Shown here piece after piece: positions 17,143 to 29,725 of a DNA stretch of 64,000 nucleotides. The DNA lies in NCBI GenBank assembly GCA_945878865.1, contig CAMCUD010000002.1, forward strand, positions 1-64,000, given 5' to 3'. The position numbers were made by a program, and so were the translations under genes. This stretch comes from Bifidobacterium breve. GTDB lineage: Bacteria > Actinomycetota > Thermoleophilia > Solirubrobacterales > Solirubrobacteraceae. Position 1 is the first letter of the stretch. Every line of letters starts with the position of its first letter. The notes under the pieces were generated by a model. The model was not told the DNA's origin and did no database searches. It saw only the letters and a program-made list of their open reading frames with translations.

Positions 17143-17622
17143 ATGGCGAAGAAGGGCAAGCGCAAGGCCGCACCGGGGGACGTCGCGACGAACCGCCAGG
17201 CGACGTTCCGCTACGAGCTGCTCGACAAGCTCGAGTGCGGCATGCAGCTGGAGGGCACCGAGGTCAAGGCGCTGCGCACCGTCGGCGCGCAGCTCAAGGA
17301 CGGCTACGTCACGATCAACAACGGCGAGCTGTGGCTGCACAACGTCCACATCCCGCCGTATCCGCCGGCGGCCCGCGAGAACCACGACCCGGATCGCAAC
17401 CGCAAGCTCCTGGCGAGCAAGCGCGACATCGAGAAGCTCACCGGCCGGGTCTCCGAGCGCGGCCTGACCCTCATCCCCACGCGGATCTACTTCAAGGGGC
17501 CGTGGGCCAAGATGGAGATCGCGCTCGGGCGGGGCAAGGACCTGTACGACAAACGGCAGGCCATCCGGGAGCGCGAGAGCAAGCGCGAGATGCAGCGCGC
17601 GGTGCGCGAGGCGACGCGGTAG
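17143..17622 (+). CDS. smpB: SsrA-binding protein SmpB
   Basis: 159 residues, the usual length. It has the OB-fold with YELLDKLECGMQLEGTEVKA, NNGELWLHNVHIPPY and LIPTRIYFKGPWAKMEIALG, and the basic C-terminal tail GKDLYDKRQAIRERESKRE that enters the ribosomal A-site. It binds tmRNA and starts trans-translation on stalled ribosomes. The partner ssrA lies about 24 kb downstream (41811). ATG 17143 begins MAKKGKRKAAPGDVATNRQA. A hairpin after the stop suggests a monocistronic unit. Confidence 0.97.
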   Translation: MAKKGKRKAAPGDVATNRQATFRYELLDKLECGMQLEGTEVKALRTVGAQLKDGYVTINNGELWLHNVHIPPYPPAARENHDPDRNRKLLASKRDIEKLTGRVSERGLTLIPTRIYFKGPWAKMEIALGRGKDLYDKRQAIRERESKREMQRAVREATR

Positions 17623-17649
17623 TACCGCAGCGCTGAGCGCCTCTCTTCC

Positions 17650-17670
17650 AACCGAGTGCACAACTCGGTT
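17650..17670 (+). terminator. Hairpin after smpB
   Basis: AACCGAGT (17650-17657) and ACTCGGTT (17663-17670) form an 8-bp stem with a 5-nt loop, about 28 bp after the smpB stop. CC and GG extend it with a one-base bulge. A weak candidate intrinsic terminator separating smpB from the ABC operon. Confidence 0.5.
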
Positions 17671-17729
17671 TGGACCTCATGGACATGTGCGGGGCCCGGG
17701 AGGGGCCCTACCTTTCCGCTCACCAAACG

Positions 17730-17752
17730 AAACGCTACGTCGCGTAGCGTTT
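17730..17752. promoter_or_regulatory. Operator before the ABC/amidohydrolase operon
   Basis: AAACGCTACG (17730-17739) and CGTAGCGTTT (17743-17752) are perfect inverted arms with a 3-nt spacer, ending 15 bp before the ATPase ATG. This is the size and symmetry of TetR-family operators. The TetR gene inside the same operon (26824) is the obvious candidate ligand-responsive repressor. No second copy was found near that gene. Confidence 0.65.
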
Positions 17753-17767
17753 GGCGCTCCGAGGACC

Positions 17768-18541
17768 ATGTCACCTGCCGCTCTCACCATCACTGATGCC
17801 ACCGTCGACTTCGGCGCCGGCCCCGTGCTCGATCGGGTGTCGCTCGACGTCGCCGCGGGCGAGTTCGTCTGCGTCGTCGGAGCCAGCGGCTCAGGGAAGA
17901 CCACCCTCCTCAACGCGATCGCGGGACTCGTCGAGCTCGACGGGGGCACGGTGGCGGTGGACGGGCGGCAGGTGGCGGGTCCGGGTCCTGACCGGGCCGT
18001 GGTGTTCCAGGACGACGCCGTGTTTCCCTGGCTGACGGTCGCGCGCAACGCGGCGTTCGGCCTGCAGACGCAGGGCGTCGCGAAGGCTGCCCGGCGCGAA
18101 CGGGTGGCGGAGGTGCTCGCCACCGTCGGGCTGACGGGCCACGAGGACCAGTGGCCGCGCGAGCTGTCGGGCGGCATGCGCAAGCGCGTCGACCTGGCCC
18201 GCGCGCTGGCGGTCCGCCCGCCGGTGCTGCTCATGGACGAGCCGTACGGCGCGCTCGACATGCTCACGAAGGAGAAGCTGCAAGGCGACCTCGACACCAT
18301 CGTCAGCCACGAGGGCATGACGGTCGTGTTCGTCACGCACGACCTGGAAGAGGCGGTCTTCCTCGCCGACCGGGTCGTGATCCTCGCCTCGCATCCCGGG
18401 CGCGTCGCCGCCGAGGTGCAGATCCCCTTCGCGCGCCCGCGAGACCCCGAGCTCCGGCTCACCCCGGACTTCCAGGCGCTGCGCGGCGAGGTGCTGCACC
18501 ACCTGCAGGCCGTCGCGGGCCCTGCCGGAGTGGCGGCATGA
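17768..18541 (+). CDS. ABC importer ATPase (SsuB/TauB/NrtD type)
   Basis: 257 residues. Walker A GASGSGKTT at 38-46, Q-loop VVFQDDAVFPWLTVARN, signature LSGGMRKRVDLARAL, Walker B VLLMDEPYGALD and His switch VFVTHD. The PWLTV Q-loop and MRKRV signature are typical of the nitrate/sulfonate/taurine/pyrimidine-precursor importer family. First gene of the long catabolic operon, directly behind the operator palindrome. The stop overlaps the permease start (ATGA). It powers uptake by the permease and lipoprotein encoded next. Confidence 0.93.
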   Translation: MSPAALTITDATVDFGAGPVLDRVSLDVAAGEFVCVVGASGSGKTTLLNAIAGLVELDGGTVAVDGRQVAGPGPDRAVVFQDDAVFPWLTVARNAAFGLQTQGVAKAARRERVAEVLATVGLTGHEDQWPRELSGGMRKRVDLARALAVRPPVLLMDEPYGALDMLTKEKLQGDLDTIVSHEGMTVVFVTHDLEEAVFLADRVVILASHPGRVAAEVQIPFARPRDPELRLTPDFQALRGEVLHHLQAVAGPAGVAA

Positions 18542-19386
18542 CCGCTGTGACGGCCCCGGCCCCCGCCGCGACCCCTCGCGCGCGCAAACGCCCGCGCGTC
18601 GACGTCCGTCGCATCGCGCTGCGCGCGGTCGTGCCCGTCGGCCTCATCGCCCTCTGGTGCGCGCTGTCGTACGGCGACGTCGTCGAGCCGCTGTACCTGC
18701 CGTCGCCCACCGGGATGTGGGAGGCATTCACCCAACTGCGCCCCGACCTGCCGAGCGCCATCGCCACGACGGTCGGGATGACGCTCACCGGCTTCCTCCT
18801 CGGCACCGTGCTCGGCGTGGGCCTCGGGCTGCTCATGGCCTACTCGGCCACCGCCCGTGTGCTGCTCAGCGACGCGCTCGACGCGACCCGGCCTGTCCCG
18901 GTGTTCGCGCTTATCCCCCTCTTCCTTCTGTGGTTCGGCATCGGTCGCGGGCCGCAGATCGCGCTCATCGCGCTCGGGACCTCCGTGATCCTGGGCGTGA
19001 CGACGCTGGAAGCGATCAGAAACGTCAATCCCATCCACGTGCGCGCCGCACTGACCCTCGGCGCGACACGCGGCACGATCTATCGGCGGGTCGTCCTGCC
19101 GAGCATCTTTCCCCACCTCCTCGGGGCGATCCGTGTCGCCGCCGCGGCCTCTTGGGGCCTCGACGTCGCCGCGGAGCTGATCGGGTCGCAGAACGGTCTG
19201 GGCTATCTCATGATCGTCCGCCAGCAGTACCTCGACACCGCGGGAATCCTCGTGGTCGTCGTGGTCTACGCCGTGCTCGCGCTGGTGCTCGACCGGGCCA
19301 TCGTCTGGCTCGAGCGCCCGCTCACCCGGTGGACCCACCGGGACCAGAGAGCCGGCGTGGCGGCATCGATCCTCGGGCGCGCCTGA
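18538..19386 (+). CDS. ABC importer permease (SsuC type)
   Basis: 282 residues, about six membrane helices, with a cytoplasmic basic N-terminus (ARKRPRVDVRR). The EAA loop contacting the ATPase is visible as EAIRNVNPIHVRAALTLGA followed by VVLPSIFPHLLGAIRVA. LYLPSPTGMWEAF near the start is the usual stretch in taurine/nitrate-family permeases. The start overlaps the ATPase stop. Imports the solute captured by the next gene's product. Confidence 0.93.
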   Translation: MTAVTAPAPAATPRARKRPRVDVRRIALRAVVPVGLIALWCALSYGDVVEPLYLPSPTGMWEAFTQLRPDLPSAIATTVGMTLTGFLLGTVLGVGLGLLMAYSATARVLLSDALDATRPVPVFALIPLFLLWFGIGRGPQIALIALGTSVILGVTTLEAIRNVNPIHVRAALTLGATRGTIYRRVVLPSIFPHLLGAIRVAAAASWGLDVAAELIGSQNGLGYLMIVRQQYLDTAGILVVVVVYAVLALVLDRAIVWLERPLTRWTHRDQRAGVAASILGRA

Positions 19387-19425
19387 CCTCCCTTCACTGA
19401 CGAACCACGAGGAGTACAGAGAAAG

Positions 19426-20583
19426 ATGACCAACCACCGAACCCGGGGGCGGCTCCTGGCCGCGCTCGCGGCGTGCGGCGCGCTCGCGCTGGGCGTCGCG
19501 GCCTGCGGCGACGACGGCGACAGCGGCGCGAGCACGGGCTCGTCCACCACCGCGGCGAAGCCCACCACCGTCAAGGTCGGCGTCGGGCCGTTCCTCGACA
19601 ACCAGACGCTCGCGCTGGCCCACGAGCTCGGCTACGACAAGGAGCAGGGGCTGGACTTCCAGCAGGTGATCCTGCCGTCGAACAACGCGATCTACCAGGC
19701 GATCCGCACGGGGGACATCGACCTCGGCGCGGGCACGCTGCGCGGGCTGCAGACCGTGGCGAAGACCGCGCCGGACCTGCAGAACTTCATCGTCAAGGAC
19801 CAGTTCAAGGGCTACTTCTTCGTCGGCCGCAAGGGCGAGACGCCCGTCTACGCTGACCTCATCAAGGAAGGCAAGACGCCCGAGGAGGCCAAGAAGGAGG
19901 TCCTCGAGTCGTTCAAGGGCAAGACCTTCAACATGGTCAAGCAGCAGAACTACGCGCCGCTGGCCGCCGGCCTCGAAGCCGCCGGAATCGACCCGAAGGA
20001 CGTGAAGATCAACGACTTCGCCGACGACGCGAAGGCGGCGCTCGCGTTCCAGCGGGGCGACGGCGACTTCTACACGGGCGCGCTGCCGCAGCAGAGCAAG
20101 CTGCTGCTCGAGAACCCCGACAAGTACGTCAACGTCGGCGGCTACGAGATCCTCGGGCCGGTCGCGATCTCCTACGACACGTGGACCACGTCGAAGGACT
20201 TCCTCGCGAAGAATCCCGAGGTGGCGCTGAAGGTCGTCGCCGCGCAGCTGAAGGCGGCGCAGTACATCAAGGACGACCTCGACGCCGCGTCGGTGAAGCT
20301 CGGCGAGCTCGTCACCGACGCGAGCAAGACCGAGCTGCCCGCGGAGAACGTGAAGCTGCTCGCCTCGGACTTCACGAAGTTCCTGACGGCCGAGGACCTC
20401 GAGAAGGATGTCTTCAACCCGGACAGCCCGTTGTACTGGAAGAAGGAGGCGGAGCTCGCCGCCAAGCAGAACGCGAAGGACCTGCCGGAGGGCTACACGC
20501 CGGAGGACCAGAACGTCAGCCAGGACTGGTTCGAGAAGTACCAGGCCGACGCCGACCTGCAGAGCTGGGTGCAGGGCACGTGA
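19426..20583 (+). CDS. ABC substrate-binding lipoprotein (NMT1/SsuA-like)
   Basis: 385 residues. Signal peptide with lipobox LGVAAC, so Cys is lipidated after cleavage (LALGVAACGDDGDSG), followed by an Asp/Ser/Thr linker. The mature part has TVKVGVGPFLDNQTLALAHE, a typical start of NMT1/THI5-type periplasmic binding proteins, and IDLGAGTLRGLQTVA. The family binds sulfonates, nitrate, pyrimidine precursors, urates and riboflavin, so the ligand cannot be read off; the downstream genes suggest a ureide or N-heterocycle. It lies 39 bp after the permease and overlaps the next small gene (GTGA). Confidence 0.9.
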   Translation: MTNHRTRGRLLAALAACGALALGVAACGDDGDSGASTGSSTTAAKPTTVKVGVGPFLDNQTLALAHELGYDKEQGLDFQQVILPSNNAIYQAIRTGDIDLGAGTLRGLQTVAKTAPDLQNFIVKDQFKGYFFVGRKGETPVYADLIKEGKTPEEAKKEVLESFKGKTFNMVKQQNYAPLAAGLEAAGIDPKDVKINDFADDAKAALAFQRGDGDFYTGALPQQSKLLLENPDKYVNVGGYEILGPVAISYDTWTTSKDFLAKNPEVALKVVAAQLKAAQYIKDDLDAASVKLGELVTDASKTELPAENVKLLASDFTKFLTAEDLEKDVFNPDSPLYWKKEAELAAKQNAKDLPEGYTPEDQNVSQDWFEKYQADADLQSWVQGT

Positions 20584-20771
20584 CCGACCGGGCGGCATCC
20601 AGCGGGCCCGCGCGCCCGACGGACGACGTGGCACGCGCGCTCGACGCGTTCTTCGCCACGGACCTGTGGAACCGCGACCGGCTCGGGTTCCGCTTCGGCC
20701 CGGACGCGGTGACCTGGGTGCCGCCCGCCCACACCGTCGTCGTCGCTCCGCCCGTCCGGGAGGAGCGATGA
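20580..20771 (+). CDS. 63-residue orphan, translationally coupled
   Basis: GTG start overlapping the lipoprotein stop and stop overlapping the amidase ATG, so it fits exactly between two coupled genes. The sequence has VARALDAFFATDLWNRDRLG and then HTVVVAPPVREER. No signal peptide, helix or known motif is recognised. The aromatic-rich middle (DLWNRDRLGFRFGPDAVTWV) suggests a small folded protein rather than random GC-rich codons. Coupling at both ends supports real translation. Function unknown. Confidence 0.6.
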   Translation: MTDRAASSGPARPTDDVARALDAFFATDLWNRDRLGFRFGPDAVTWVPPAHTVVVAPPVREER

Positions 20772-22159
20772 CGGTGGCGACCGATCTCGCCTGGCTCGGC
20801 GTCGCCGAGGCCGGCAGACTGCTGCGCGCCGGCGACATCGGCGCGGTGGAGCTCACGGAGGCGACGCTTGCGTGGATCGACCGGACCGAGCCGTTCGTCC
20901 ACACGTTCGTCGCGCTCGACGTCGACGGGGCCCGCGCCGCGGCGCGCGTCGCGGAAGCGGAGCTGGCGGCGGGCCTGGACCGCGGCCCGCTGCACGGGAT
21001 CCCGTACAGCGTGAAGGACCTCGTCGCGGTCGCCGGCCTACCCCTGCGCGCAGGCTCGCGCGCGGTCGATGGCACGGTTCCGGCGATCGACGCAGCGGTC
21101 ATCTCGTCGCTGCGCGAGGCCGGAGCGATCTGCCTGGGCAAGGTCGCCACGCACGAGTTCGCGTGGGGGATGCACTCCGATCCGGCCCGCAACCCGTGGG
21201 ACGGCGAACGCCTGAGCGGCGGGTCGAGCGGCGGCAGCGGCTCGGCGGTCGCGGCGGGCCAGGGCGCGTTCTCGATCGGCACGGACTGCGGCTGCTCGGT
21301 GCGCGCCCCCGCGGCGCTGAACGGCGTGTGCGCGATCCGCCCGACCCACGGGCGGGTGGCCATGGACGGGGTCGTGCCGCTGTCGATGACGATGGACAAC
21401 GTCGGCCCGCTCGCCCGCAGCGCGGAGGATGTCGCGCTCATCCTCGACGCGATCGCCGACGGCTGGACGTGGGAGCCGCCGCAGACCGACGACCTCGTGG
21501 GGCTCCGTCTCGGCGTGCCGCGCGGCTACTTCTTCGAAGCGATCCAGCCGGGCGTTGCCGCGGCGGTCGAAGCGGCGATTGACGTCCTGCGTGGGCTCGG
21601 TGCCGAGGTCGTCGACGTCGAGCTCGAACGCGCCGCGCAGGCCGCGCCCGTCGATGTCGCGATCGTCAACAGCGAATCGGCCGTCCTGCTCGAGGACCTC
21701 GCCGCGGACCGCGGCGGCGACCTCGGCGACGACGTGCGCGCCCAGCTCGCCCTCGGCCGGGCGATCTCCGCGCGCGATTACCTGCGCGGCCAGCAGCTGC
21801 GCACGCTGATCGGCGAGGACTTCGCGCGGGTGTTCGGCGACGTCGACGCGATCGTGACGCCGACCGTCCCGGCAGTCGCGCAACGGCACAACGGGAGCCT
21901 CTTCATCGACGTGGAGTTCCCTGGCGGGACGACGGAGGACGTGGGGTGGACGTACTGCCGGTACACCTTCCCGATGAGCGTTGCGGGCGTCCCGACCGTC
22001 GCGGTCCCGTGCGGACTCTCGGAGGGGCTCCCGGCCGGCATCTCGATCGCCGCGCGGCAGTTCGGCGAAGCCACCGCTCTGCGGGTCGCCCTGGCGTACC
22101 AGCGGGTGACCGACCACCACCGGCAGCGACCCCCGGCCCTCATGGAGGCGACCGCATGA
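20768..22159 (+). CDS. Amidase signature (AS) family hydrolase
   Basis: 463 residues. The Ser-cisSer-Lys triad is present: Lys in GIPYSVKDLVAVAG, cis-Ser in LSGGSSGGSGSAVAAGQ and the nucleophile Ser in GTDCGCSVRAP. The usual TGGS around the nucleophile is CGCS here, which may alter the acyl pocket. AS enzymes hydrolyse amides to acid and ammonia, so this could be a late step in the operon's pathway. It overlaps both neighbours by ATGA. A second, more canonical AS amidase is at 40315. Confidence 0.9.
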   Translation: MTVATDLAWLGVAEAGRLLRAGDIGAVELTEATLAWIDRTEPFVHTFVALDVDGARAAARVAEAELAAGLDRGPLHGIPYSVKDLVAVAGLPLRAGSRAVDGTVPAIDAAVISSLREAGAICLGKVATHEFAWGMHSDPARNPWDGERLSGGSSGGSGSAVAAGQGAFSIGTDCGCSVRAPAALNGVCAIRPTHGRVAMDGVVPLSMTMDNVGPLARSAEDVALILDAIADGWTWEPPQTDDLVGLRLGVPRGYFFEAIQPGVAAAVEAAIDVLRGLGAEVVDVELERAAQAAPVDVAIVNSESAVLLEDLAADRGGDLGDDVRAQLALGRAISARDYLRGQQLRTLIGEDFARVFGDVDAIVTPTVPAVAQRHNGSLFIDVEFPGGTTEDVGWTYCRYTFPMSVAGVPTVAVPCGLSEGLPAGISIAARQFGEATALRVALAYQRVTDHHRQRPPALMEATA

Positions 22160-23007
22160 CCGAGTACCGCGCCACGATCTGCGTCTGCAGCGACTTCGAC
22201 GCGCTCTCGATGTGGATGGACTTCGGTGCGATGGGCGCCCGTGCGCTCTCGCGCGGTGAGTTCGGGCCGCGTGTCGGCGCGCCGCGCCTGCTCGAGCTGC
22301 TGGACCGCCTCGACGCTCCGAGCACCTGGTTCATCCCCGGGCACACCGCCGAGACGTTCCCCGAGATCTGCCGCCGGGCTGCCGACGCCGGCCACGAGAT
22401 CGCCGGGCACGGCTACCACCACGAGTCGTTCGACGCACTCTCGATCGACGAGGGTCGGCACGTCATCCGCGTGAGCAACGACGCGCTCGAGCGCGTCACG
22501 GGCCAGCGGCCCGTCGGCTTCCGCCACCCGACGGGCGACCTCGACCAGGCACTGCTCGAGGTCTTCGTCGAGGAGGGCTACGCGTACGACTCAAGCCTCG
22601 CCGCCGACGACTTCTTCCCCTACTGGGCGCGCGGCGCGTGGACGCACCAGCACCTCGGGCCGAGCATCCCCGGCCCGCTGCTCGACCTCGTCGAGATCCC
22701 GCACAGCTTCGTCCTCAACGACTTCCATCACTTCGAGTTCACCTACGACGGGCCGAAGCTCACGGGCCGCGACGGACCGGCGCCGGTCGAGGCGATCTGG
22801 CGCGCGGAATGGGAGTACCTGCTGGCCAACGCGCCGGGCGGGATCTTCAACCTCGTCCTGCACCCCGAGTCGATCGGACGCGGCCTGCGGATGGCGATGC
22901 TCGAGCGGTTCCTGCGCGACGCCGCGGCCGAGCCGGGCGTCCGCTTCGCGACGCTCGCCACGGTGGCGCAGGAGTTCCGTGACGCGCATCCGGGAGGTCC
23001 GGCGTGA
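22156..23007 (+). CDS. NodB-fold deacetylase / PuuE allantoinase-like
   Basis: 283 residues of the polysaccharide deacetylase superfamily. Metal-site residues are visible: Asp pair in CSDFDALS, His in HEIAGHGYHHESFD, and a conserved Arg in VGFRHPTGD. There is no signal peptide, so it acts in the cytoplasm. That fits PuuE-type amide-ring hydrolases (allantoinase and related) better than cell-wall deacetylases. In this operon it may open a cyclic ureide or remove an N-acyl group. Coupled to the amidase (ATGA) and to the RidA gene (GTGA). Confidence 0.8.
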   Translation: MTEYRATICVCSDFDALSMWMDFGAMGARALSRGEFGPRVGAPRLLELLDRLDAPSTWFIPGHTAETFPEICRRAADAGHEIAGHGYHHESFDALSIDEGRHVIRVSNDALERVTGQRPVGFRHPTGDLDQALLEVFVEEGYAYDSSLAADDFFPYWARGAWTHQHLGPSIPGPLLDLVEIPHSFVLNDFHHFEFTYDGPKLTGRDGPAPVEAIWRAEWEYLLANAPGGIFNLVLHPESIGRGLRMAMLERFLRDAAAEPGVRFATLATVAQEFRDAHPGGPA

Positions 23008-23387
23008 TGGAGCTCATGATGGCCCCGGGGGCACCCGCGCCCAAGGGGCCGTACTCGCACGCCGCGGCGTTCGGCGATCTCGTCGTCGTCACCGCGCAGA
23101 CCGGGACGGACCCGGCCACCGGCCTGCTGCGCGAGGGCGCCGAGGCGCAGGCCCGGCAGGCGGTCGCGAACCTCGGCGCGGTCCTGCGCGCGGCGGGCTG
23201 CGCGCCCCAGACGGTGCTCCGCCTGGGCCTCGCGCTCGTCGACCTGGCGTACCTGCCGGCGCTCAACGGCGCACTTGCGGGTCTGCTGGGGGCGCACCGG
23301 CCGCCGCGCGCGACCGCGCAGGTGATCGCGCTGCCCGGCGGGGCCCGGCTGGCGATCGAGGCGATGGCGATCAGGGAGGCGAAGTAG
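23004..23387 (+). CDS. RidA-family protein (enamine/imine deaminase or RutC-like)
   Basis: 127 residues of the YjgF/YER057c/UK114 fold: PGAPAPKGPYSHAAAFGDLVVVTAQTG at the start is the usual strand-turn-strand (GPYSHA) and RPPRATAQVIALPG the conserved Arg strand. RidA proteins hydrolyse reactive enamines or imines; the RutC subgroup acts in pyrimidine breakdown. Here it probably processes an unstable intermediate made by the deaminase or hydrolases of this operon. GTG 23004 overlaps the upstream stop; ATG 23007 is an alternative. Confidence 0.88.
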   Translation: MMELMMAPGAPAPKGPYSHAAAFGDLVVVTAQTGTDPATGLLREGAEAQARQAVANLGAVLRAAGCAPQTVLRLGLALVDLAYLPALNGALAGLLGAHRPPRATAQVIALPGGARLAIEAMAIREAK

Positions 23388-23768
23388 GTGGCGAAGACCG
23401 AGCGGGAGTTCCACACGCCGGCGAACCCGTGGATCGAGAGGTCCCCGGGCAACGACGCCCAGGTGCTGAGCGTGGACGAGGAGACCGGAGCGTTCACCCG
23501 GCTCTCCCGGCTGGAGCCGCACACCGACACCACGCCGCAGGGGGTCCAGGCCCACGCGTGCTGGGAGGAGGTCTACATCGTCAGCGGCTCGATCTACGAC
23601 ATCGGGCTCGACGCGTGGTTCCACGCGGGTCAGTACGCCGTGCGGCCGCCCGGGATGAAGCACGGGCCGTGGAAGGCGGGGCCCGACGGCACCGTGATGC
23701 TCGAGTGGCGCTACGCGATGACCGACGACCGCGAGCGGCTGCCGCGAGACCACTACGTGACGCCGTGA
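23388..23768 (+). CDS. Cupin-domain protein
   Basis: 126 residues. A single cupin barrel: HACWEEVYIVSGSIYDIG matches the first motif, with Glu but few His ligands, and YAVRPPGMKHGPWKA the second. It resembles ChrR-type or small isomerase cupins. Metal binding is possible through Glu and His but the classical HxH is missing. GTG begins directly after the RidA stop. In ureide pathways cupins act as ureidoglycine aminohydrolase or ureidoglycolate lyase. That analogy is only by context. Confidence 0.78.
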   Translation: MAKTEREFHTPANPWIERSPGNDAQVLSVDEETGAFTRLSRLEPHTDTTPQGVQAHACWEEVYIVSGSIYDIGLDAWFHAGQYAVRPPGMKHGPWKAGPDGTVMLEWRYAMTDDRERLPRDHYVTP

Positions 23769-24172
23769 CCGACGCCGAGGCCATCGTGCGCGCGTGGGTG
23801 GACGCCATCAATGCGCGGGACTTCGACGCGTTCGACACGCTGTTCGCGCCGACGTACGTCAACCATCACCGCCCGTACGCACAGGACGACGGCGTGCCGG
23901 GGGTACGCCGGTTCTTCGAAGCGCTCTGCGACGCGCTGGACGGGTTCTTCTACGACGTGGAGTCGCTGACAGTCGACGGTGAGCACGTGCGCCTGCGACT
24001 GCGCGGCACCGGCGTGCAGGTTGGCGAGGTGCTCGGCATGGCGCCGACCAACGCGCCGGTCGAGGTCACCGTCACGCATCTGTACCGGGTCACCGACGGG
24101 CGGATCCAGGAACGCTGGGGTGACCCGGATGATCCGTTCGCGATCCGCCCGCTCGAGGAGGCCGGCGCGTGA
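23765..24172 (+). CDS. SnoaL / NTF2-like protein
   Basis: 135 residues with the alpha+beta cone fold. VRAWVDAINARDFDAFDTLF, FAPTYVNHHRP and GVRRFFEALCDALDG match the SnoaL-like polyketide cyclase/ester cyclase family. YRVTDGRIQERWGDPDD is the typical C-terminal strand. Such proteins are cyclases, isomerases or binding subunits. Overlaps both neighbours by GTGA, so it belongs to the operon. The substrate is unknown. Confidence 0.8.
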   Translation: MTDAEAIVRAWVDAINARDFDAFDTLFAPTYVNHHRPYAQDDGVPGVRRFFEALCDALDGFFYDVESLTVDGEHVRLRLRGTGVQVGEVLGMAPTNAPVEVTVTHLYRVTDGRIQERWGDPDDPFAIRPLEEAGA

Positions 24173-25611
24173 GCACGACGCTGCTGGCCGACGTGCTGCT
24201 CCCCGCCGGCACACGTGCCGATGTGCTGCTCGACGACGGCGTGATCGCCTCCGTCGGCGCCCCGGGCGCGCTCGCGGGCGACGTCCGGGTCGACGCGACA
24301 CGGCGGCTGGTGCTTCCCGGCTTGGTCAACGCGCACTTCCACTCCAGCGAGAACTGGTTCAAGGGGCGCTTCGACCGGCTCCCGCTCGAACCGTGGATGC
24401 TCTTCAGCTACCCGCCGCTGCTGGCGCCCGAGCAGACGCCGCGGGAGATCTACGTCCGCACGCTGCTCGGCGCCGTCGAGTTGCTGCGGGGCGGGTGCAC
24501 GACGGTGGTGGACTTCCTCTACGAGCTGCACGGGTTCACCGGCGCGACGGTCGACGCCGTCGTGCGCGCGTACCGCGATGCGGGGCTGCGCGCGCTTGTG
24601 GTCCTCGGGATGAGCGATCTGGCCTGGGCGGACACCCTCATCCTCGACGCCACGCGGCTCGGCGCCCGCGCGCGGGAGGCGCTGCGCGACGACGCGCCGC
24701 CCACGTGGGCGGAGTGGGAGGGCTTCACGCGCGACATGGTCGCCGCGCACCACCGTCCTGAGGAGGGCATCGCGATCGGCCTCGGCCCGTCCGGCCCGCA
24801 GCGCTGCACCGACGCGATGCTCGCGGGGTGCGCGCGACTGGCCAGAGAGCTCGGCCTCTGCGTGCACATCCACGTGCTGGAGACCCGCATGCAGGCCGAG
24901 AGCGGCCGCCGGCGGTGGGGCACGACGCTGCCCGCCCGCCTGGACGCACTCGGCTTCCTCGGTCCGGAAGTCTGCTTCGAGCACGCGATCTGGCTCGAGG
25001 ACGACGACGTCTCGCGGATGGCCCGGCACGGCGTGAAGGTCGCGCACAACCCGGTCAGCAACCTCAAGCTCGGCAGCGGCGTCTGCGACGTGCGCGCGCT
25101 GCGACGGGCGGGCATCTCCGTCGGCCTGGGAACGGACGGGTCGTCTTCGAACGACGGCGCCGACATGTTTGCGTGCGTGAAGACCGGGGCGCTGCTGCAC
25201 CGCGGGCCGGACACCGACTTCGAGGACTGGCTCGGTGCACGTGACCTGTGGGACATGGGCACGCGCGGCGGTGCCGCGTCGACGCCGTGGGACGCGGTGC
25301 TCGGGCGCGTCGAGCCGGGGGCGGCGGCAGACCTGCTGCTGCTCGACCTCGACCATCGCGCCTACACGCCGCTGCACCAGCCGGTGCGCCAGACCGTGTT
25401 CACCGCGCCGTCAAGCGCGCTCACCGACGTGTTCGTCCGCGGACGGCGGGTGCTGGCCGACGGGGAGATCGCGACGTTCGACGAGCGTGCGCTCCTCGCT
25501 GACGCGCGCGCGGCCGGCCGCGCGGTGACGGCGCGGTTCGCCGCGGCGGACACGCTCGCCGACGACCTCATGGACGCGGTGACGGCGGGCTGGCGGGCGG
25601 TGGCCGCATGA
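24169..25611 (+). CDS. Amidohydrolase-superfamily deaminase
   Basis: 480 residues, TIM-barrel metal hydrolase of the cytosine/guanine/SAH-deaminase and chlorohydrolase group. Metal-site residues: HxH in LVNAHFHSS, His with Glu in VHIHVLET, His in FEHAIWLED, and Asp in LGTDGSSSND. Mononuclear deaminases have this HxH-H-H-D set with Glu. It should remove an amino group (or halide or thioether) from an N-heterocycle. Within the operon this fits a first chemical step that yields a ring for the dihydropyrimidinase. Substrate unassigned. Confidence 0.88.
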   Translation: MSTTLLADVLLPAGTRADVLLDDGVIASVGAPGALAGDVRVDATRRLVLPGLVNAHFHSSENWFKGRFDRLPLEPWMLFSYPPLLAPEQTPREIYVRTLLGAVELLRGGCTTVVDFLYELHGFTGATVDAVVRAYRDAGLRALVVLGMSDLAWADTLILDATRLGARAREALRDDAPPTWAEWEGFTRDMVAAHHRPEEGIAIGLGPSGPQRCTDAMLAGCARLARELGLCVHIHVLETRMQAESGRRRWGTTLPARLDALGFLGPEVCFEHAIWLEDDDVSRMARHGVKVAHNPVSNLKLGSGVCDVRALRRAGISVGLGTDGSSSNDGADMFACVKTGALLHRGPDTDFEDWLGARDLWDMGTRGGAASTPWDAVLGRVEPGAAADLLLLDLDHRAYTPLHQPVRQTVFTAPSSALTDVFVRGRRVLADGEIATFDERALLADARAAGRAVTARFAAADTLADDLMDAVTAGWRAVAA

Positions 25612-26831
25612 CCGCGGTCGCTGAGCGCATGGCGGCGACCGCCGAGCTCCTGTCGGCGCCGCCGTTCTCCGACCGCGACGACGCGGTGTGCCGGTACGCC
25701 TTCACGCCCGGGTTCGCAGCGACCGTCGACCACGTGGGCAGCCTGCTCGCCGACGCCGGCCTGCGGGTGCGGCGGGATCGCGCCGGCACGCTGTGGGGCG
25801 ATCGGGGAGCGCCCGGCGCGCCGCGTGTCGGCGTCGGCTCGCATCTCGACAGCGTGCGTCGCGGCGGGCGCTGGGACGGGGTGCTCGGGATGCTCGTCGC
25901 GCTGGAAGTCGCGCGTGCCGCGCCCGATCTCCCGGTGCGGGCGGTCGCCTGGGTGGAAGAGGAAGGGGCCGGCTTCGGCCAGCTCCTGCTCGGCAGCCGG
26001 ATCGCGACGGGCGCGGTCGACGCCGATGCCCTCGCCACAGCGATCCGCGCGCTGGACGACGGGCGCCCGTTCACCGAACACGCGCGCGCCGCGGGGATGC
26101 CGACGGCTGCGTGCACCGAGTCGGCGGCGATCCTCGATGGGATGGTCGCGTGGATCGAGCCACACATCGAGCAGGCACGGGTCCTCGAGGACACCGGGAC
26201 CCGGTTGGGTGTCGTCGACCGGATCGCGGGCTTCGTTCAGGGCGAGCTGGTCGTCGAAGGGCGGGCCGACCACGCGGGTGCCACGCCGATGGCGTTGCGC
26301 CGCGATGCCGGCCTGCTCGCTGCGGAGGTGATGCTGCGCCTCGAGGAGCTCGCGCTCACCCATGGCGCTGTCGCCACCGTCGGGGACGTCGTGTTGACTC
26401 CCGGGGCGATGAACGTCGTTCCCGCTCGCGCTCGCCTGACCCTCGACATCCGCGGCCCGCATGACGCGGCGGTCCTGGGCACCCTTGAGGAGGTGCTCGC
26501 GTTCGCCGGCGAGCGCGCCGTTGCGCGGGGGCTGCGCACGGACTACCGCGAGCGATCCCGGCAGCCTGCCACGGTCCTGGACACGGGCGTCGTGGATGCG
26601 CTCGCGGACGCGGCGCGGGTGGAAGGCATCGAGCCGCTTCGCATGGTCTCCGGCGCCGCGCACGACACGATGGTGCTCGCGCCCTACGTTCCCAGCGCGA
26701 TGCTCTTCGTCCCGTGTGTCGACGGCCTGAGCCACGACCCGGGAGAGGCCGTTGACCCGGCGGACGCGGCGCTGGCCGTGCGGGTCGTCACGCGCGCCGC
26801 CCACACGCTGATCGGAGGTCGCGATGGCTGA
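25608..26831 (+). CDS. M20-family N-carbamoylase / ureidoacid hydrolase
   Basis: 407 residues of the hydantoinase/carbamoylase (HyuC/AllC/beta-ureidopropionase) group. Dimetal residues: GVGSHLDSVRRGG holds the first His-Asp, AWVEEEGAGFG the bridging Glu pair, and SGAAHDTMVLA the C-terminal His. The lid domain GRADHAGATPMALRRDAG is characteristic. It hydrolyses N-carbamoyl amino acids or allantoate to CO2, ammonia and an amino acid. It is the natural next step after the hydantoinase at 27569. Start coupled to the amidohydrolase (ATGA). Confidence 0.92.
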   Translation: MTAVAERMAATAELLSAPPFSDRDDAVCRYAFTPGFAATVDHVGSLLADAGLRVRRDRAGTLWGDRGAPGAPRVGVGSHLDSVRRGGRWDGVLGMLVALEVARAAPDLPVRAVAWVEEEGAGFGQLLLGSRIATGAVDADALATAIRALDDGRPFTEHARAAGMPTAACTESAAILDGMVAWIEPHIEQARVLEDTGTRLGVVDRIAGFVQGELVVEGRADHAGATPMALRRDAGLLAAEVMLRLEELALTHGAVATVGDVVLTPGAMNVVPARARLTLDIRGPHDAAVLGTLEEVLAFAGERAVARGLRTDYRERSRQPATVLDTGVVDALADAARVEGIEPLRMVSGAAHDTMVLAPYVPSAMLFVPCVDGLSHDPGEAVDPADAALAVRVVTRAAHTLIGGRDG

Positions 26832-27426
26832 GCCCGTCACCCGGGGCATCCGCCCCGCGACCGAGGAGGCGGTCTTCGCCGCAACGCTCGACGCCCTCGC
26901 CGACAGGGGCTATGGCGCGCTGACCATCGAGGGCGTCGCCGCGCGATCGGGCGTGGCCAAGACGACGATCTACCGCTGGTGGCCGAGCAAGGCCGCGCTC
27001 GTCATCGACGCGATCGCCCCCGTCTTCGCGTCGGTCAACCCCGTGGCGCCGGAGGCGGGCAGCGACCTGCGCGCCGACCTCCAGGCCGCCGTGCGCCGGG
27101 TCGTCGACGGGTTCCAGCACCGCCTGGAGGGCATCGTCCTCGCGGGCCTCGTCGCCGACCTGGCGCGTGACCCCGAGACGGCGGCCGCCTATCGCGAGCG
27201 CATCGTCCGTCCGCGGCGCGAGGCGGTCACGCGGCTGTTGGAGGCATGGCAGGCGCGCGGGCGGATCCGTCCCGACGCCGACCTCGACCTCGTCCAGGAC
27301 CTCTACGTCGGCCCGATCTACTACCGGTCGCTCGTGACCGGCGCCCCGGTGGACGACGGGTTCGGCGACGCGCTCGTCGACGCGATCCTCGCGCACGTCG
27401 CGCTGCCTGCCGGAGAGGGCGGATGA
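26824..27426 (+). CDS. TetR-family regulator of the operon
   Basis: 200 residues. N-terminal HTH: ADRGYGALTIEGVAARSGVAKTTIYRWWPSK covers helices 1-3 with the common TTIYRWW recognition helix. The C-terminal domain (YYRSLVTGAPVDDGF) is of the AcrR/TetR_C type that often binds aromatic or heterocyclic ligands. It lies inside the operon, overlapping the carbamoylase by 8 nt, so it is autoregulated if it represses the promoter at 17730. I infer that it responds to the imported compound or an intermediate. Confidence 0.92.
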   Translation: MAEPVTRGIRPATEEAVFAATLDALADRGYGALTIEGVAARSGVAKTTIYRWWPSKAALVIDAIAPVFASVNPVAPEAGSDLRADLQAAVRRVVDGFQHRLEGIVLAGLVADLARDPETAAAYRERIVRPRREAVTRLLEAWQARGRIRPDADLDLVQDLYVGPIYYRSLVTGAPVDDGFGDALVDAILAHVALPAGEGG

Positions 27427-27572
27427 CCGCCACGCGGAACGTCTGCCTCCCTCTCCGACCGCCGGTCCACGGTGGTTCGTACGTCCCGTCCGTGGCCGCG
27501 TTCGCACCTCCCTGGGACGGTGCCCCGGCCATGCCGCCCCGCCCATGCCGAACAGTGGAAGACCAGCCGTGA
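27423..27572 (+). CDS. Possible 49-residue coupled ORF
   Basis: ATG 27423 overlaps the TetR stop (ATGA) with GGAGAGGG just upstream, and its stop overlaps the GTG of the next gene (GTGA). The peptide is Pro/Arg-rich (VCLPLRPPVHGGSYVPSV) with no recognisable fold. It may serve only to carry ribosomes across the 146-nt gap to the hydantoinase, or be noncoding leader sequence. The DNA also holds loose CCACGG/CCGTGG arms. Confidence 0.3.
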   Translation: MTATRNVCLPLRPPVHGGSYVPSVAAFAPPWDGAPAMPPRPCRTVEDQP

Positions 27573-28975
27573 CCGACACCCTCATCAAGGGCGGCCGCAT
27601 CATCACCGCCGCCGACGATTATCACGCCGACGTCCTGCTCAGCGCGGGTCAGATCGCGCTCATCGGCGCGGATCTCGACGTGCGGGCCGACCGCGTCATC
27701 GACGCGCGCGGCCACTACGTCCTGCCGGGCGCCGTCGACATGCACACGCATCTCGAGATGCCGTTCGGCGGCACGATGACCTGCGACGACTTCACCACGG
27801 GAACGCTCGCCGCGGTGCACGGCGGCACGACGTCCATCGTCGACTTCTGCGTCCAGCAGCAGGGTCAGTCCCTGCCTGACGCGCTGGCGACATGGCACGA
27901 GAAGATCACCCGCTGCCCGCCGTTCGCCGACGTCGGTTTCCACGTCGCGGTCACCGACCTGTCCGATCCCGCCCGCCTCGACGAGCTCGCCGCGCTGCCC
28001 GAGCAGGGCGTCACCTCGATCAAGCTCTTCATGGCCTACAAGGGCGCGATCATGGTCGACGACGAGACCCTCTTCCGCACGATGCAGGTCGCCGGCCGCA
28101 GCGGCAGCCTCGTGATGGTCCACGCCGAGAACGGCGACGCGATCCAGGTGCTCATCGAGCAGGCGCTGGCCGCCGGGAACACCGGCACGGCGTGGCACGG
28201 ACGGACGCGCCCGCCGATCACCGAGGCCGAGGCGACGAGCCGCGCCATCGACTTCGCGCAGCTGGCCGACTGCCCGCTGTACGTCGTGCATGTCTCCTGC
28301 GGAGAGGCGCTTGCGCCGGTCGAGCGGGCGCGCGCTGCGGGGGCGAAGGTGTGGGCCGAGACGTGCAGCCAGTACCTCTACCTCGACGAATCGGTGCTCG
28401 ACCTGCCGGACTTCGCGGGAGCCAAGGCCGTCTTCACTCCGCCGCCGCGCGCGAAGCACAACCAGGAGATCCTGTGGAGCGCGCTGGACCGCGGCGTGCT
28501 CGAAGTCGTCTCCAGCGACCACTGTCCGTTCCGCTGGGCCGACCAGAAGGCCCTGGGCCGCGACGACTTCTCGAAGATCCCCAACGGCGGGCCGGGCATC
28601 GAGGACCGCGTCGAGCTGCTGCACGAGTTCGGCGTGCGCACCGGCCGGCTGACGCTCAACCAGTGGGTGGACATGACCGCCACGGCGCCGGCGCGGTTGT
28701 TCGGCCTGCGGGGCAAAGGCTCGATCGCGGTCGGCGGCGACGCCGATGTCGTGGTGTTCGACCCCGAGCGCGAGCGGACGATTAGCGCCGCCTCCCAGCA
28801 CTCGGCCATCGACTACAACCTCTACGAGGGGATCACCGTGCACGGCGGTCCGACCGCCGTCTTCGTTCGAGGGGAGCTCGTCGTCCGCGACGGAGAGACG
28901 GTGGCGGAGCCGGGAACCGGCCGGTTCGTTGCGCGGGAGCGGTTCGGGGCCGGGCGGACGTACGCGCATGCGTGA
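27569..28975 (+). CDS. Dihydropyrimidinase / D-hydantoinase
   Basis: 468 residues. Dimetal amidohydrolase: HxH in VDMHTHLEMPFGG, carboxylated Lys in GVTSIKLFMAYKG, His in VMVHAENGD and VVHVSCG, and Asp in VSSDHCPF. It opens six- or five-membered cyclic diamides (dihydrouracil, hydantoins, possibly allantoin) to N-carbamoyl amino acids. This pairs with the M20 carbamoylase. No dihydropyrimidine dehydrogenase is encoded nearby, so hydantoin-type substrates are more likely than uracil. GTG 27569 overlaps the small ORF's stop. Last gene of the operon. Confidence 0.94.
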   Translation: MTDTLIKGGRIITAADDYHADVLLSAGQIALIGADLDVRADRVIDARGHYVLPGAVDMHTHLEMPFGGTMTCDDFTTGTLAAVHGGTTSIVDFCVQQQGQSLPDALATWHEKITRCPPFADVGFHVAVTDLSDPARLDELAALPEQGVTSIKLFMAYKGAIMVDDETLFRTMQVAGRSGSLVMVHAENGDAIQVLIEQALAAGNTGTAWHGRTRPPITEAEATSRAIDFAQLADCPLYVVHVSCGEALAPVERARAAGAKVWAETCSQYLYLDESVLDLPDFAGAKAVFTPPPRAKHNQEILWSALDRGVLEVVSSDHCPFRWADQKALGRDDFSKIPNGGPGIEDRVELLHEFGVRTGRLTLNQWVDMTATAPARLFGLRGKGSIAVGGDADVVVFDPERERTISAASQHSAIDYNLYEGITVHGGPTAVFVRGELVVRDGETVAEPGTGRFVARERFGAGRTYAHA

Positions 28976-28995
28976 GTGCTAGCATGCCTGCATGC
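28966..28995 (+). promoter_or_regulatory. Triple GCATGC and likely leaderless vapB promoter
   Basis: GCATGC occurs at 28966-28971, 28982-28987 and 28990-28995; the last overlaps the vapB ATG (28992). TAGCAT (28980-28985) is a good -10 hexamer ending 6 nt before the ATG, and no ribosome binding site precedes it, so the transcript may begin at the start codon. The repeats fit a self-regulating antitoxin operator. Confidence 0.55.
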
Positions 28996-29294
28996 ATCAG
29001 TTCTCGCTGCGGGTGGCCGACGAGCTGGGCGAGGCGGTGAAGGCCGCCGCGGCCGACCGCGGACAGAGCGTCAACGCCTTCGTCGTCGCGGTGCTCGAGG
29101 CCGTGACCGATCCCGCTCATGCCGGCGACGACGCCGCGCGGCTGCGCGAGCGCCTGGCACGCGGAGGGATCCTGTCGGTGCAGGGCCCGCCGCGTCCGCG
29201 GCCCGACCGCGCGGCGTTTGAGGCTGCGCGCGCTCGGGCGGCGGAAGGCACGCCGCTCTCCGATCTCGTGGTGGCCGAGCGCGACGCGCGGTGA
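28992..29294 (+). CDS. VapB-type antitoxin (ribbon-helix-helix)
   Basis: 100 residues. FSLRVADELGEAVKAAAADRG then QSVNAFVVAVLEAV is a ribbon-helix-helix DNA-binding fold (Arc/MetJ type). The C-terminal half (ILSVQGPPRPRPDRAAFEAA) is probably the toxin-binding, flexible part. Sits directly upstream of and overlaps a PIN toxin gene (GTGA), the standard vapBC arrangement. It neutralises the RNase and represses its own promoter. Confidence 0.85.
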   Translation: MHQFSLRVADELGEAVKAAAADRGQSVNAFVVAVLEAVTDPAHAGDDAARLRERLARGGILSVQGPPRPRPDRAAFEAARARAAEGTPLSDLVVAERDAR

Positions 29295-29725
29295 CGGTGT
29301 TCGCAGACAGCTCGGCACTGGTCGGGCTGTACGGCGACGAGCCCAGCCGCACCCAGGCGCGGCAGATCGCCGATCTCGCGGTGTCCGACCTCGCCCGGGT
29401 GGAGGTCACCTCCGCGCTGTGGACGAAGGTGCGGACTGGGGAACTCGCGTCGGAGGACGCGGTGCTGCTCGAGGCGTGGTTCGCCACCGACTGGCACGGC
29501 GACGGGCAACATCCCCCGCGCTTCGCTGCGATCCCGGTGTCACCCGCCATCCTCGAGCGCGCGGTGGCGCTCGTGTCGCGTCACGCGCTGAGGACGCTCG
29601 ACGCGATCCAGCTCGCGAGCGCGATCGCCGCGCGGGAGGCCGACCCGGACCTCGACACGTTCCTCGGCTTTGACGCGCGGCTGAACCGCGCCGCCGCGGC
29701 CGAGGGGTTCGCGGTCGTGTCGTAA
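29291..29725 (+). CDS. vapC: VapC-type PIN-domain toxin RNase
   Basis: 144 residues, PIN fold. The acids are visible: Asp in FADSSALVGLYGDE, Glu in LARVEVTSALW, and Asp in RTLDAIQLASAI plus FLGFDARLN. VapC toxins cleave tRNA or rRNA loops and stop translation. The start is coupled to the antitoxin. Convergent with the peptidase gene, 4 bp apart. Its position right after the catabolic operon could mean it helps keep that region, but this is only suggestive. Confidence 0.88.
   Translation: MTVFADSSALVGLYGDEPSRTQARQIADLAVSDLARVEVTSALWTKVRTGELASEDAVLLEAWFATDWHGDGQHPPRFAAIPVSPAILERAVALVSRHALRTLDAIQLASAIAAREADPDLDTFLGFDARLNRAAAAEGFAVVS

Follow-up and report, generated by a model that had tools for sequence, protein, structure and literature searches.

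A conserved 13-gene operon of Svornostia that joins familiar hydrolases in an unusual combination, possibly for scavenging nitrogen from a ring compound

Which compound would be taken up and hydrolysed by means of an operon that encodes its own importer, its own regulator and a series of ring- and amide-cleaving enzymes, and that fits neither classical pyrimidine nor classical purine catabolism? This question is raised by a locus at positions 17768-28975 of a 64,000-nucleotide stretch of DNA (in the following, the window), which belongs to a Svornostia genome of the order Solirubrobacterales and was read and translated here from 17401 to 29200. The operon is real and conserved, and it unites familiar parts in an unusual combination. 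The reading favoured here, which is tentative and falls somewhat short of even probability, is that of a TetR-repressed, self-contained system for scavenging nitrogen from a nitrogen-ring (N-ring) compound, extending from import to hydrolysis. An earlier note on the same DNA had assigned the operon to a cyclic ureide or amide, a substrate class that is reasonable but unproven.

The locus was compared with 232 genomes of the order and 396 genomes of the phylum, the own genome being included in both samples. One of these (G001) equals the sequence of Svornostia abyssi J379 (CP088295.1) over 11,240 compared bases and is referred to as J379, while a third genome of the genus is termed G002; the own assembly is 96% complete and that of G002 89%. 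Family calls were judged against the curated bit-score cut-offs of Pfam and NCBIfam models, and constraint was expressed as the ratio of nonsynonymous to synonymous substitution rates (dN/dS) relative to J379. The 13 open reading frames (ORFs), all on the plus strand, and the elements associated with them are as follows:

17730..17752, no strand: perfect inverted-repeat operator AAACGCTACG-TCG-CGTAGCGTTT, identical in J379
17768..18541, + strand: ATPase of an ATP-binding cassette (ABC) importer (PF00005; 89% identity with J379, dN/dS 0.10)
18538..19386, + strand: ABC permease (PF00528; dN/dS 0.22)
19426..20583, + strand: NMT1/THI5-like substrate-binding lipoprotein, in the following SBP (substrate-binding protein; PF09084)
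20580..20771, + strand: 63-aa ORF, possible small partner of the following amidase (positional parallels; no Pfam or NCBIfam match)
20768..22159, + strand: amidase-signature (AS) amidase, proposed half-amidase (family match and motifs)
22156..23007, + strand: NodB-fold hydrolase of the HpPgdA type, proposed cyclic imidase
23007..23387, + strand: RidA-family imine/enamine deaminase (PF01042; alternative start GTG 23004)
23388..23768, + strand: ChrR-like cupin (PF12973)
23765..24172, + strand: SnoaL-like NTF2-fold protein (PF07366)
24169..25611, + strand: ATZ/TRZ-type amidohydrolase (gene 10), putative deaminase or ring hydrolase
25608..26831, + strand: M20 amidohydrolase of the hydantoinase/carbamoylase family (TIGR01879)
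26824..27426, + strand: TetR regulator (TetR_N, TetR_C_11)
27427..27544, no strand: 118-bp gap, absent from J379
27545..28975, + strand: D-hydantoinase/dihydropyrimidinase (TIGR02033; start may be GTG 27569)

In order, the 12 junctions measure -4, +39, -4, -4, -4, -1, 0, -4, -4, -4, -8 and +118 bp. The statement of the earlier note that every junction but one of 39 bp is an overlap or abutment holds for genes 1-12 (17768-27426), but overlooked the 118-bp gap between the TetR and hydantoinase genes, which would grow to 142 bp if the hydantoinase started at GTG 27569, the codon that lines up with the hydantoinase start of J379. In J379, the TetR gene (to 16230) and the hydantoinase gene (from 16227) overlap by 4 nt; none of the 16-mers in the extra DNA of the gap recurs in the rest of the window. 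The protein families named in that note are borne out by family-model matches, its PuuE-like label being the sole correction.

Conservation of the operon is most evident in J379, which carries all 13 genes in identical order between smpB and an M3 peptidase gene. Across the ten genes that could be cleanly aligned, dN/dS ranges from 0.08 to 0.54 and is low in nine of them, the lowest value belonging to the NodB-fold enzyme and the highest to the 63-aa ORF, whose 0.54 at 82% identity denotes weak constraint; the values of the amidohydrolase, the M20 enzyme and TetR are inflated by out-of-frame stretches, and that of smpB is distorted by its N-terminus.

The operator consists of perfect 10-bp arms around a 3-bp spacer, ends 15 bp before the first ATG and is located just upstream of a ribosome-binding-like GAGGA. 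Palindromy alone was rejected as evidence, since perfect 10-bp palindromes with spacers of 0-6 are not rare in the window (18 listed, several of them nested, vs 0-8 in ten mononucleotide shuffles). The case is made instead by conservation and uniqueness: J379 has the operator and the bases close to it unchanged, whereas the sequence farther upstream has diverged; the exact 7+7 core is found a single time each in the own genome and in J379 and is absent from G002; and when up to 3 mismatches were allowed, the pattern was matched at one place in the window but in none of 100 shuffles. The perfect operator noticed earlier ahead of the operon is real. An operon that contains a TetR gene and begins with a single such site has the arrangement typical of a dedicated autorepressor, and because the operator is the sole exact site in either genome, the operon-internal TetR protein would be expected to bind there and probably controls this operon only.

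Concerning the enzymes, the hydantoinase scores 564.4 bits against TIGR02033 (cut-off 393.25), its best solved relative being the dihydropyrimidinase 3sfw. The M20 enzyme scores 272.2 bits against TIGR01879 (cut-off 204) and passes none of the other 19 models it matched, including its best NCBIfam match, an allantoate amidohydrolase model (304.6 bits, cut-off 479). In gene 10, residues H56, H58, H235, E238, H272 and D323 are invariant in 16 aligned proteins and active-site-like. Among the 38 models that it matched none of the best 25 was passed, so the designation as deaminase is a guess from family membership; SsnA identity was likewise rejected (TIGR03314, 122.7 bits, cut-off 455.5). According to excerpts of the paper on the reductive urate pathway, SsnA cleaves a dearomatised purine ring by hydrolysis, hydantoin or dihydrouracil rings are opened by HyuA, and a ureido group is taken off by YgeY, an M20 enzyme (PMC12507026). 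Since its relative SsnA opens a ring there, gene 10 could also be a ring hydrolase, and the amidohydrolase-hydantoinase-M20 arm would by analogy follow the logic of SsnA, HyuA and YgeY. Elsewhere in the own genome, further hydantoinase relatives lie on contigs C14, C28 and C43, with allantoinase models not passed; the one at C14:76500-96400 (L095) passes TIGR02033, is 54% identical to the operon's enzyme and lies about 3.6 kb from an AS amidase relative.

The second arm is formed by the NodB-fold enzyme, which had initially been regarded as a PuuE-like third ureide opener. That assignment fails: the enzyme scores 70 bits against the PuuE model TIGR03212 (cut-off 424.6), while HpPgdA of Helicobacter pylori, its closest solved relative, is matched about twice better (150 bits vs 70-78 bits for PuuE). 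In addition, the predicted model, of high local confidence (predicted local distance difference test, pLDDT, 92), reaches a template modelling (TM) score of 0.91 to HpPgdA vs 0.79-0.81 to PuuE, and the D-H-H positions are kept. Twenty aligned NodB-type proteins share D13, D15, H85, H89, D189 and H236 without exception, D15, H85 and H89 being the presumed metal-binding residues of the family. As judged by sequence and predicted model, the enzyme is closer to the HpPgdA/imidase type than to PuuE. Its matches at E<=1e-30 occur in 22 of the 232 order genomes.

The adjacent amidase carries Lys, cis-Ser and Ser motifs, presumably those of the AS type, and does not qualify as AtzE, which was rejected at 258.9 bits against TIGR02715 (cut-off 425.75). 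FAAH is an AS enzyme as well. In the passages of PMC9304392 at hand, HxnM of the Aspergillus nicotinate pathway is described as a cyclic imidase that resembles HpPgdA in structure and shares 64% identity with an imidase homologue of Pseudomonas putida, while HxnN, likened to FAAH, cleaves the HxnM product as the next step. HpPgdA itself can bind metal, unlike PuuE, and showed no activity towards any compound tried, among them allantoin (PMC3084791, in part); as late as 2022 its specificity was described as unknown (PMC9304392, in part). By analogy with HxnM and HxnN, the NodB-fold enzyme and the AS amidase more likely constitute an imidase/half-amidase pair. This pairing is favoured by one order genome, G112, in which relatives of both lie side by side, and by three of four plasmid neighbourhoods from the NodB search that show an annotated amidase in the stretch displayed, namely two related Rhizobium clusters (annotated RidA, polysaccharide deacetylase and amidase) and one Haladaptatus locus. 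Against it stand the Paenarthrobacter plasmid neighbourhood and a Comamonadaceae plasmid with a 27% identical NodB relative, neither of which shows an amidase. The Paenarthrobacter relative (44% identity; L072:8998-9837) belongs to a plasmid from YJN-5, a strain that degrades iprodione, and an Asp/Glu racemase-family gene and hydantoinase/oxoprolinase genes are found nearby; it could conceivably be the hydantoin-opening ddaH.

The 63-aa ORF has credible matches confined to two Svornostia genomes: at E<=0.01, 4 of the 232 order genomes were matched, the two outside Svornostia at 9e-4 (with two stop codons) and 5e-3, and a second match in the own genome stands at 7e-3. Its single-sequence model is poor (pLDDT 70; predicted TM score, pTM, 0.29). 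In all four plasmid loci opened around an AS amidase, a 51-97-aa ORF overlaps or abuts the amidase gene upstream (three of the four had been listed beforehand with a hypothetical protein), and these ORFs do not align convincingly with the 63-aa ORF. Excerpts of PMC6219798 describe AtzG as a small non-catalytic partner that is needed for the solubility of AtzE; by this analogy, an AtzG-like role of the 63-aa protein beside the AS amidase is possible.

As to import, the SBP is matched at E<=1e-15 in only 3 of the 232 order genomes. Because its solved relatives are weak (THI5, E 0.003; taurine-binding protein, E 0.006) and the plasmid search gave no match, no ligand is named for it. For the cupin, no useful solved relative was found, and the two plasmid relatives opened both lie in unrelated contexts. 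A second importer is encoded in the own genome at C28:10000-29900 (L096), where an SBP with 24% identity to that of the operon is accompanied by two hydantoinase-like genes, an IclR-type regulator gene and the end of an M20-like gene.

Beyond the genus, the ABC importer, amidohydrolase, hydantoinase and M20 genes recur together in two genomes. Relatives of gene 10 at E<=1e-60 are present in 16 of the 232 genomes, and the neighbourhoods of 6 of the 15 others were read (J379 and five outside the genus); in the phylum scan at E<=1e-75, 3 of the 396 genomes were matched. G188, of the same family and another genus, aligns permease, ATPase, nitrilase-type gene, amidohydrolase, M20 enzyme and hydantoinase, and its SBP is a relative of the one in G582. 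G582, of another family, contains SBP, permease, ATPase, nitrilase-type gene, amidohydrolase, hydantoinase, GntR-like gene and M20 enzyme, and a flavin monooxygenase-like ORF is seen by eye about 3.3 kb beyond the last. The SBP, nitrilase-type, GntR-type and monooxygenase-like labels in both genomes were given by eye, except for the nitrilase-type protein of G582, which scores 120 bits against TIGR03381 (cut-off 410). By sequence, both importers appear related to that of the operon in ATPase (46-50% identity) and permease (29%), not recognisably in the binding protein. A scan with the G582 amidohydrolase at E<=1e-110 matched 1 of the 396 genomes, G582 itself, and a further locus, in G363, yielded amidohydrolase matches only. 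On plasmids, gene-10 relatives lie with other importers; in Ensifer such a relative is directly followed by a cupin gene.

Taken together, the following course of events may be envisaged. The ligand or a derivative would free TetR from the single operator, the 13 genes would be co-transcribed, and the NMT1-type importer would take up a small N-heterocycle. Subsequently, the ATZ/TRZ amidohydrolase would strip an exocyclic amino group or open a first ring, the D-hydantoinase would open a hydantoin or dihydropyrimidine ring, and the M20 enzyme would take off the carbamoyl group. Either alongside or after these steps, a cyclic imide would be opened by the NodB-fold enzyme and the half-amide deamidated by the AS amidase, possibly assisted by the 63-aa protein, and RidA would clear an imine or enamine product. 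This single-substrate reading is preferred because gene order and operator are kept in J379 and the hydantoinase and M20 enzyme pass their cut-offs, because amidohydrolase, hydantoinase and M20 genes cluster with an ABC importer in G188 and G582, and because sequence, motif and model of the NodB-fold enzyme point to HpPgdA, with HxnM and HxnN as precedent. Moreover, RidA, NodB-type and amidase genes recur together, a RidA gene directly precedes the gene-10 relative on pRL10 of Rhizobium johnstonii, and the genome offers neither uricase nor a PreT-type dehydrogenase, RutA being far below its cut-off. If true, eight enzymes or enzyme-like proteins, served by one importer and one local repressor, would constitute a nitrogen-compound pathway matched to no known route yet, HpPgdA-type NodB-fold enzymes would gain a substrate, and the SsnA-HyuA-M20 logic would be found in compact, testable form outside urate degradation.

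Several observations weigh against a single dedicated pathway. The 118-bp gap could house a separate promoter. J379 bears frame-breaking single-base insertions in the amidohydrolase, M20 and TetR genes (at about 13194, 15268 and 15841 of locus L048, the first, in the amidohydrolase gene, beside a C run), which may be either sequencing errors or decay of the ureide arm. The complete set is present in two of the three Svornostia genomes, and no other neighbourhood that was read contains it; in G002, gene 10, the NodB-fold enzyme, the SBP and the operator had no match at the thresholds used, and the best amidase relative is 39% identical. M20 and hydantoinase genes lie beside gene 10 in one of the five order neighbourhoods outside the genus (G188). 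In G051 a weak hydantoinase (33%), importer genes and a RidA relative are spread over 16 kb, while the neighbourhoods of G224, G047 and G033 hold no other query genes, those of G047 and G033 being stretches of about 12 kb limited by contig ends. In addition, the SBP query matched nothing in the loci of G188 and G582, and of 14 neighbourhoods of NodB relatives in the order beyond Svornostia, that of G112 alone holds a relative of this AS amidase.

Another explanation is unlikely but the best of the rivals: a RidA-imidase-amidase module and an amidohydrolase-hydantoinase-carbamoylase module, unrelated to each other and acting on different substrates, may have merged behind one promoter and share one broad importer. 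The arms do occur singly, the ureide arm in G188 and G582, the imide arm on the two Rhizobium plasmids and in G112. Linkage in other genomes, which the earlier note had named as a test of the operon, accordingly gave a mixed picture, with the full set linked in one congener, the ureide core in G188 and G582, and the arms also apart. On the other hand, the operon has a single local regulator gene, a single operator and a single importer, the SBP of which is almost without relatives in the order, and this argues for one substrate class. Were the two-module explanation true, the operon would be an ordinary merger of known hydrolase sets.

Distinctly less probable is a variant of pyrimidine salvage, in which a cytosine-like base would be deaminated by gene 10, reduced elsewhere and converted by the hydantoinase and then the M20 enzyme to beta-alanine. 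The hydantoinase is indeed an orthodox dihydropyrimidinase-type enzyme. BMP-type ABC importers have a role in nucleoside uptake, and relatives of gene 10 lie beside such an importer and a nucleoside hydrolase gene on pSymA of Sinorhizobium meliloti and, in Terrarubrum, near a gene annotated as cytosine deaminase. However, a PreT-type dihydropyrimidine dehydrogenase was not found genome-wide, the sole Fer4_20 domain residing in a GltB-GltD stretch (a ferredoxin-dependent PydA-only form without Fer4_20 was not searched), no reductase is seen by eye between SBP and M20 genes in G582, and the imidase/amidase half would be left unexplained. Genome-wide, uricase (PF01014) had no match and RutA (TIGR03612) seven, the best at 57 bits (cut-off 498.3), and both assignments were rejected. 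The earlier observation that dihydropyrimidine dehydrogenase, Rut oxygenase and urate oxidase are lacking thus extends, for the PreT-type, above-cut-off RutA and uricase forms, to the whole 96% complete assembly, and the view of an apparently inducible operon for a nitrogen compound that fits neither classical route is supported.

Very improbable is a redox-free counterpart of reductive urate degradation, in which an already non-aromatic bicyclic or bis-ureide compound (e.g. a product of guanine oxidation such as guanidinohydantoin or spiroiminodihydantoin) would be imported and degraded by hydrolysis only, with imidase and AS amidase replacing the YgeW/UacY steps. The operon encodes no known redox enzyme, and XdhD, YgfK/UacX, YgeW and YgeX are not among its 13 products, no genome-wide search having been made for XdhD and YgfK/UacX. 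The least probable explanation, a pathway for allantoin or a related ureide with an allantoate-type M20 enzyme and two allantoinases, draws on the best NCBIfam match of the M20 enzyme and is opposed by the absence of uricase, by the PuuE score given above and by the rejection of AllB and AllC for the hydantoinase (274 bits, cut-off 357.85) and the M20 enzyme (169.5 bits, cut-off 597.75), respectively.

Returning to the preferred single-substrate reading, related clusters have already been published for urate, pyrimidines and a nitrogen shift in Haloferax, as far as the excerpts of these papers go. Reductive pyrimidine (Pyd) clusters are associated with importers and TetR regulators. Like them, as partially sourced descriptions have it, the operon pairs a dihydropyrimidinase-type enzyme with a carbamoylase; unlike them, it adds amidohydrolase, imidase-type enzyme, AS amidase, RidA, cupin and SnoaL-like protein, in a genome in which the PreT-type dehydrogenase was not found. 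With the reductive uric acid cluster XdhD-YgfK-SsnA-HyuA-YgeY-YgeW-YgeX (PMC12507026, in part) it shares an Amidohydro_1 enzyme, a D-hydantoinase and an M20 enzyme for N-rings and ureido groups, whereas its M20 enzyme is of the carbamoylase family, with no YgeY-named model among its 20 matches, and gene 10 fails SsnA. The likeness to HxnM and HxnN, namely a NodB-type enzyme likened to HpPgdA plus an amide hydrolase, is one of description in parts of PMC9304392, not of HxnM/HxnN sequence, and no nicotinate enzymes were recognised in the operon. As in the cyanuric acid operon atzDGEHF (PMC6219798, in part), a small protein precedes the AS amidase and an NTF2-fold protein is encoded; unlike there, the small ORF matches no family, the five Pfam matches of the SnoaL-like protein include no AtzH/DUF3225 model and the amidase fails the AtzE cut-off.

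A further published gene combination is HVO_A0293-A0306 on pHV4 of Haloferax volcanii, in which genes for an importer, a NodB-like protein, a dihydropyrimidinase and an M20 carbamoylase lie next to one another and are induced together in a nitrogen shift (PMC6801745, in part), all four being represented in the operon. The haloarchaeal cluster differs by its spermidine/putrescine-type importer, aminotransferase, semialdehyde dehydrogenase and luciferase-family oxidoreductase, and the excerpts of PMC6801745, compared by description and not by DNA, mention no AS amidase or ATZ/TRZ enzyme. The claim that three ring openers in one operon are unusual is weakened by this precedent and by the two Rhizobium plasmids. 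Among open-licence PMC papers, none was found on this gene set, one combination matching the Haloferax paper only, and none on Svornostia abyssi.

Regarding the flanks, smpB lies upstream of the operon, and a toxin-antitoxin-like RHH-PIN gene pair (28992-29725) separates the hydantoinase gene from the M3 peptidase gene downstream; since the latter two are adjacent in J379, the pair was either gained here or lost there. Between smpB and the operator, a hairpin at 17650-17670 retains its stem in J379, where one compensatory pair is seen by eye; this is consistent with a terminator ahead of the operon.

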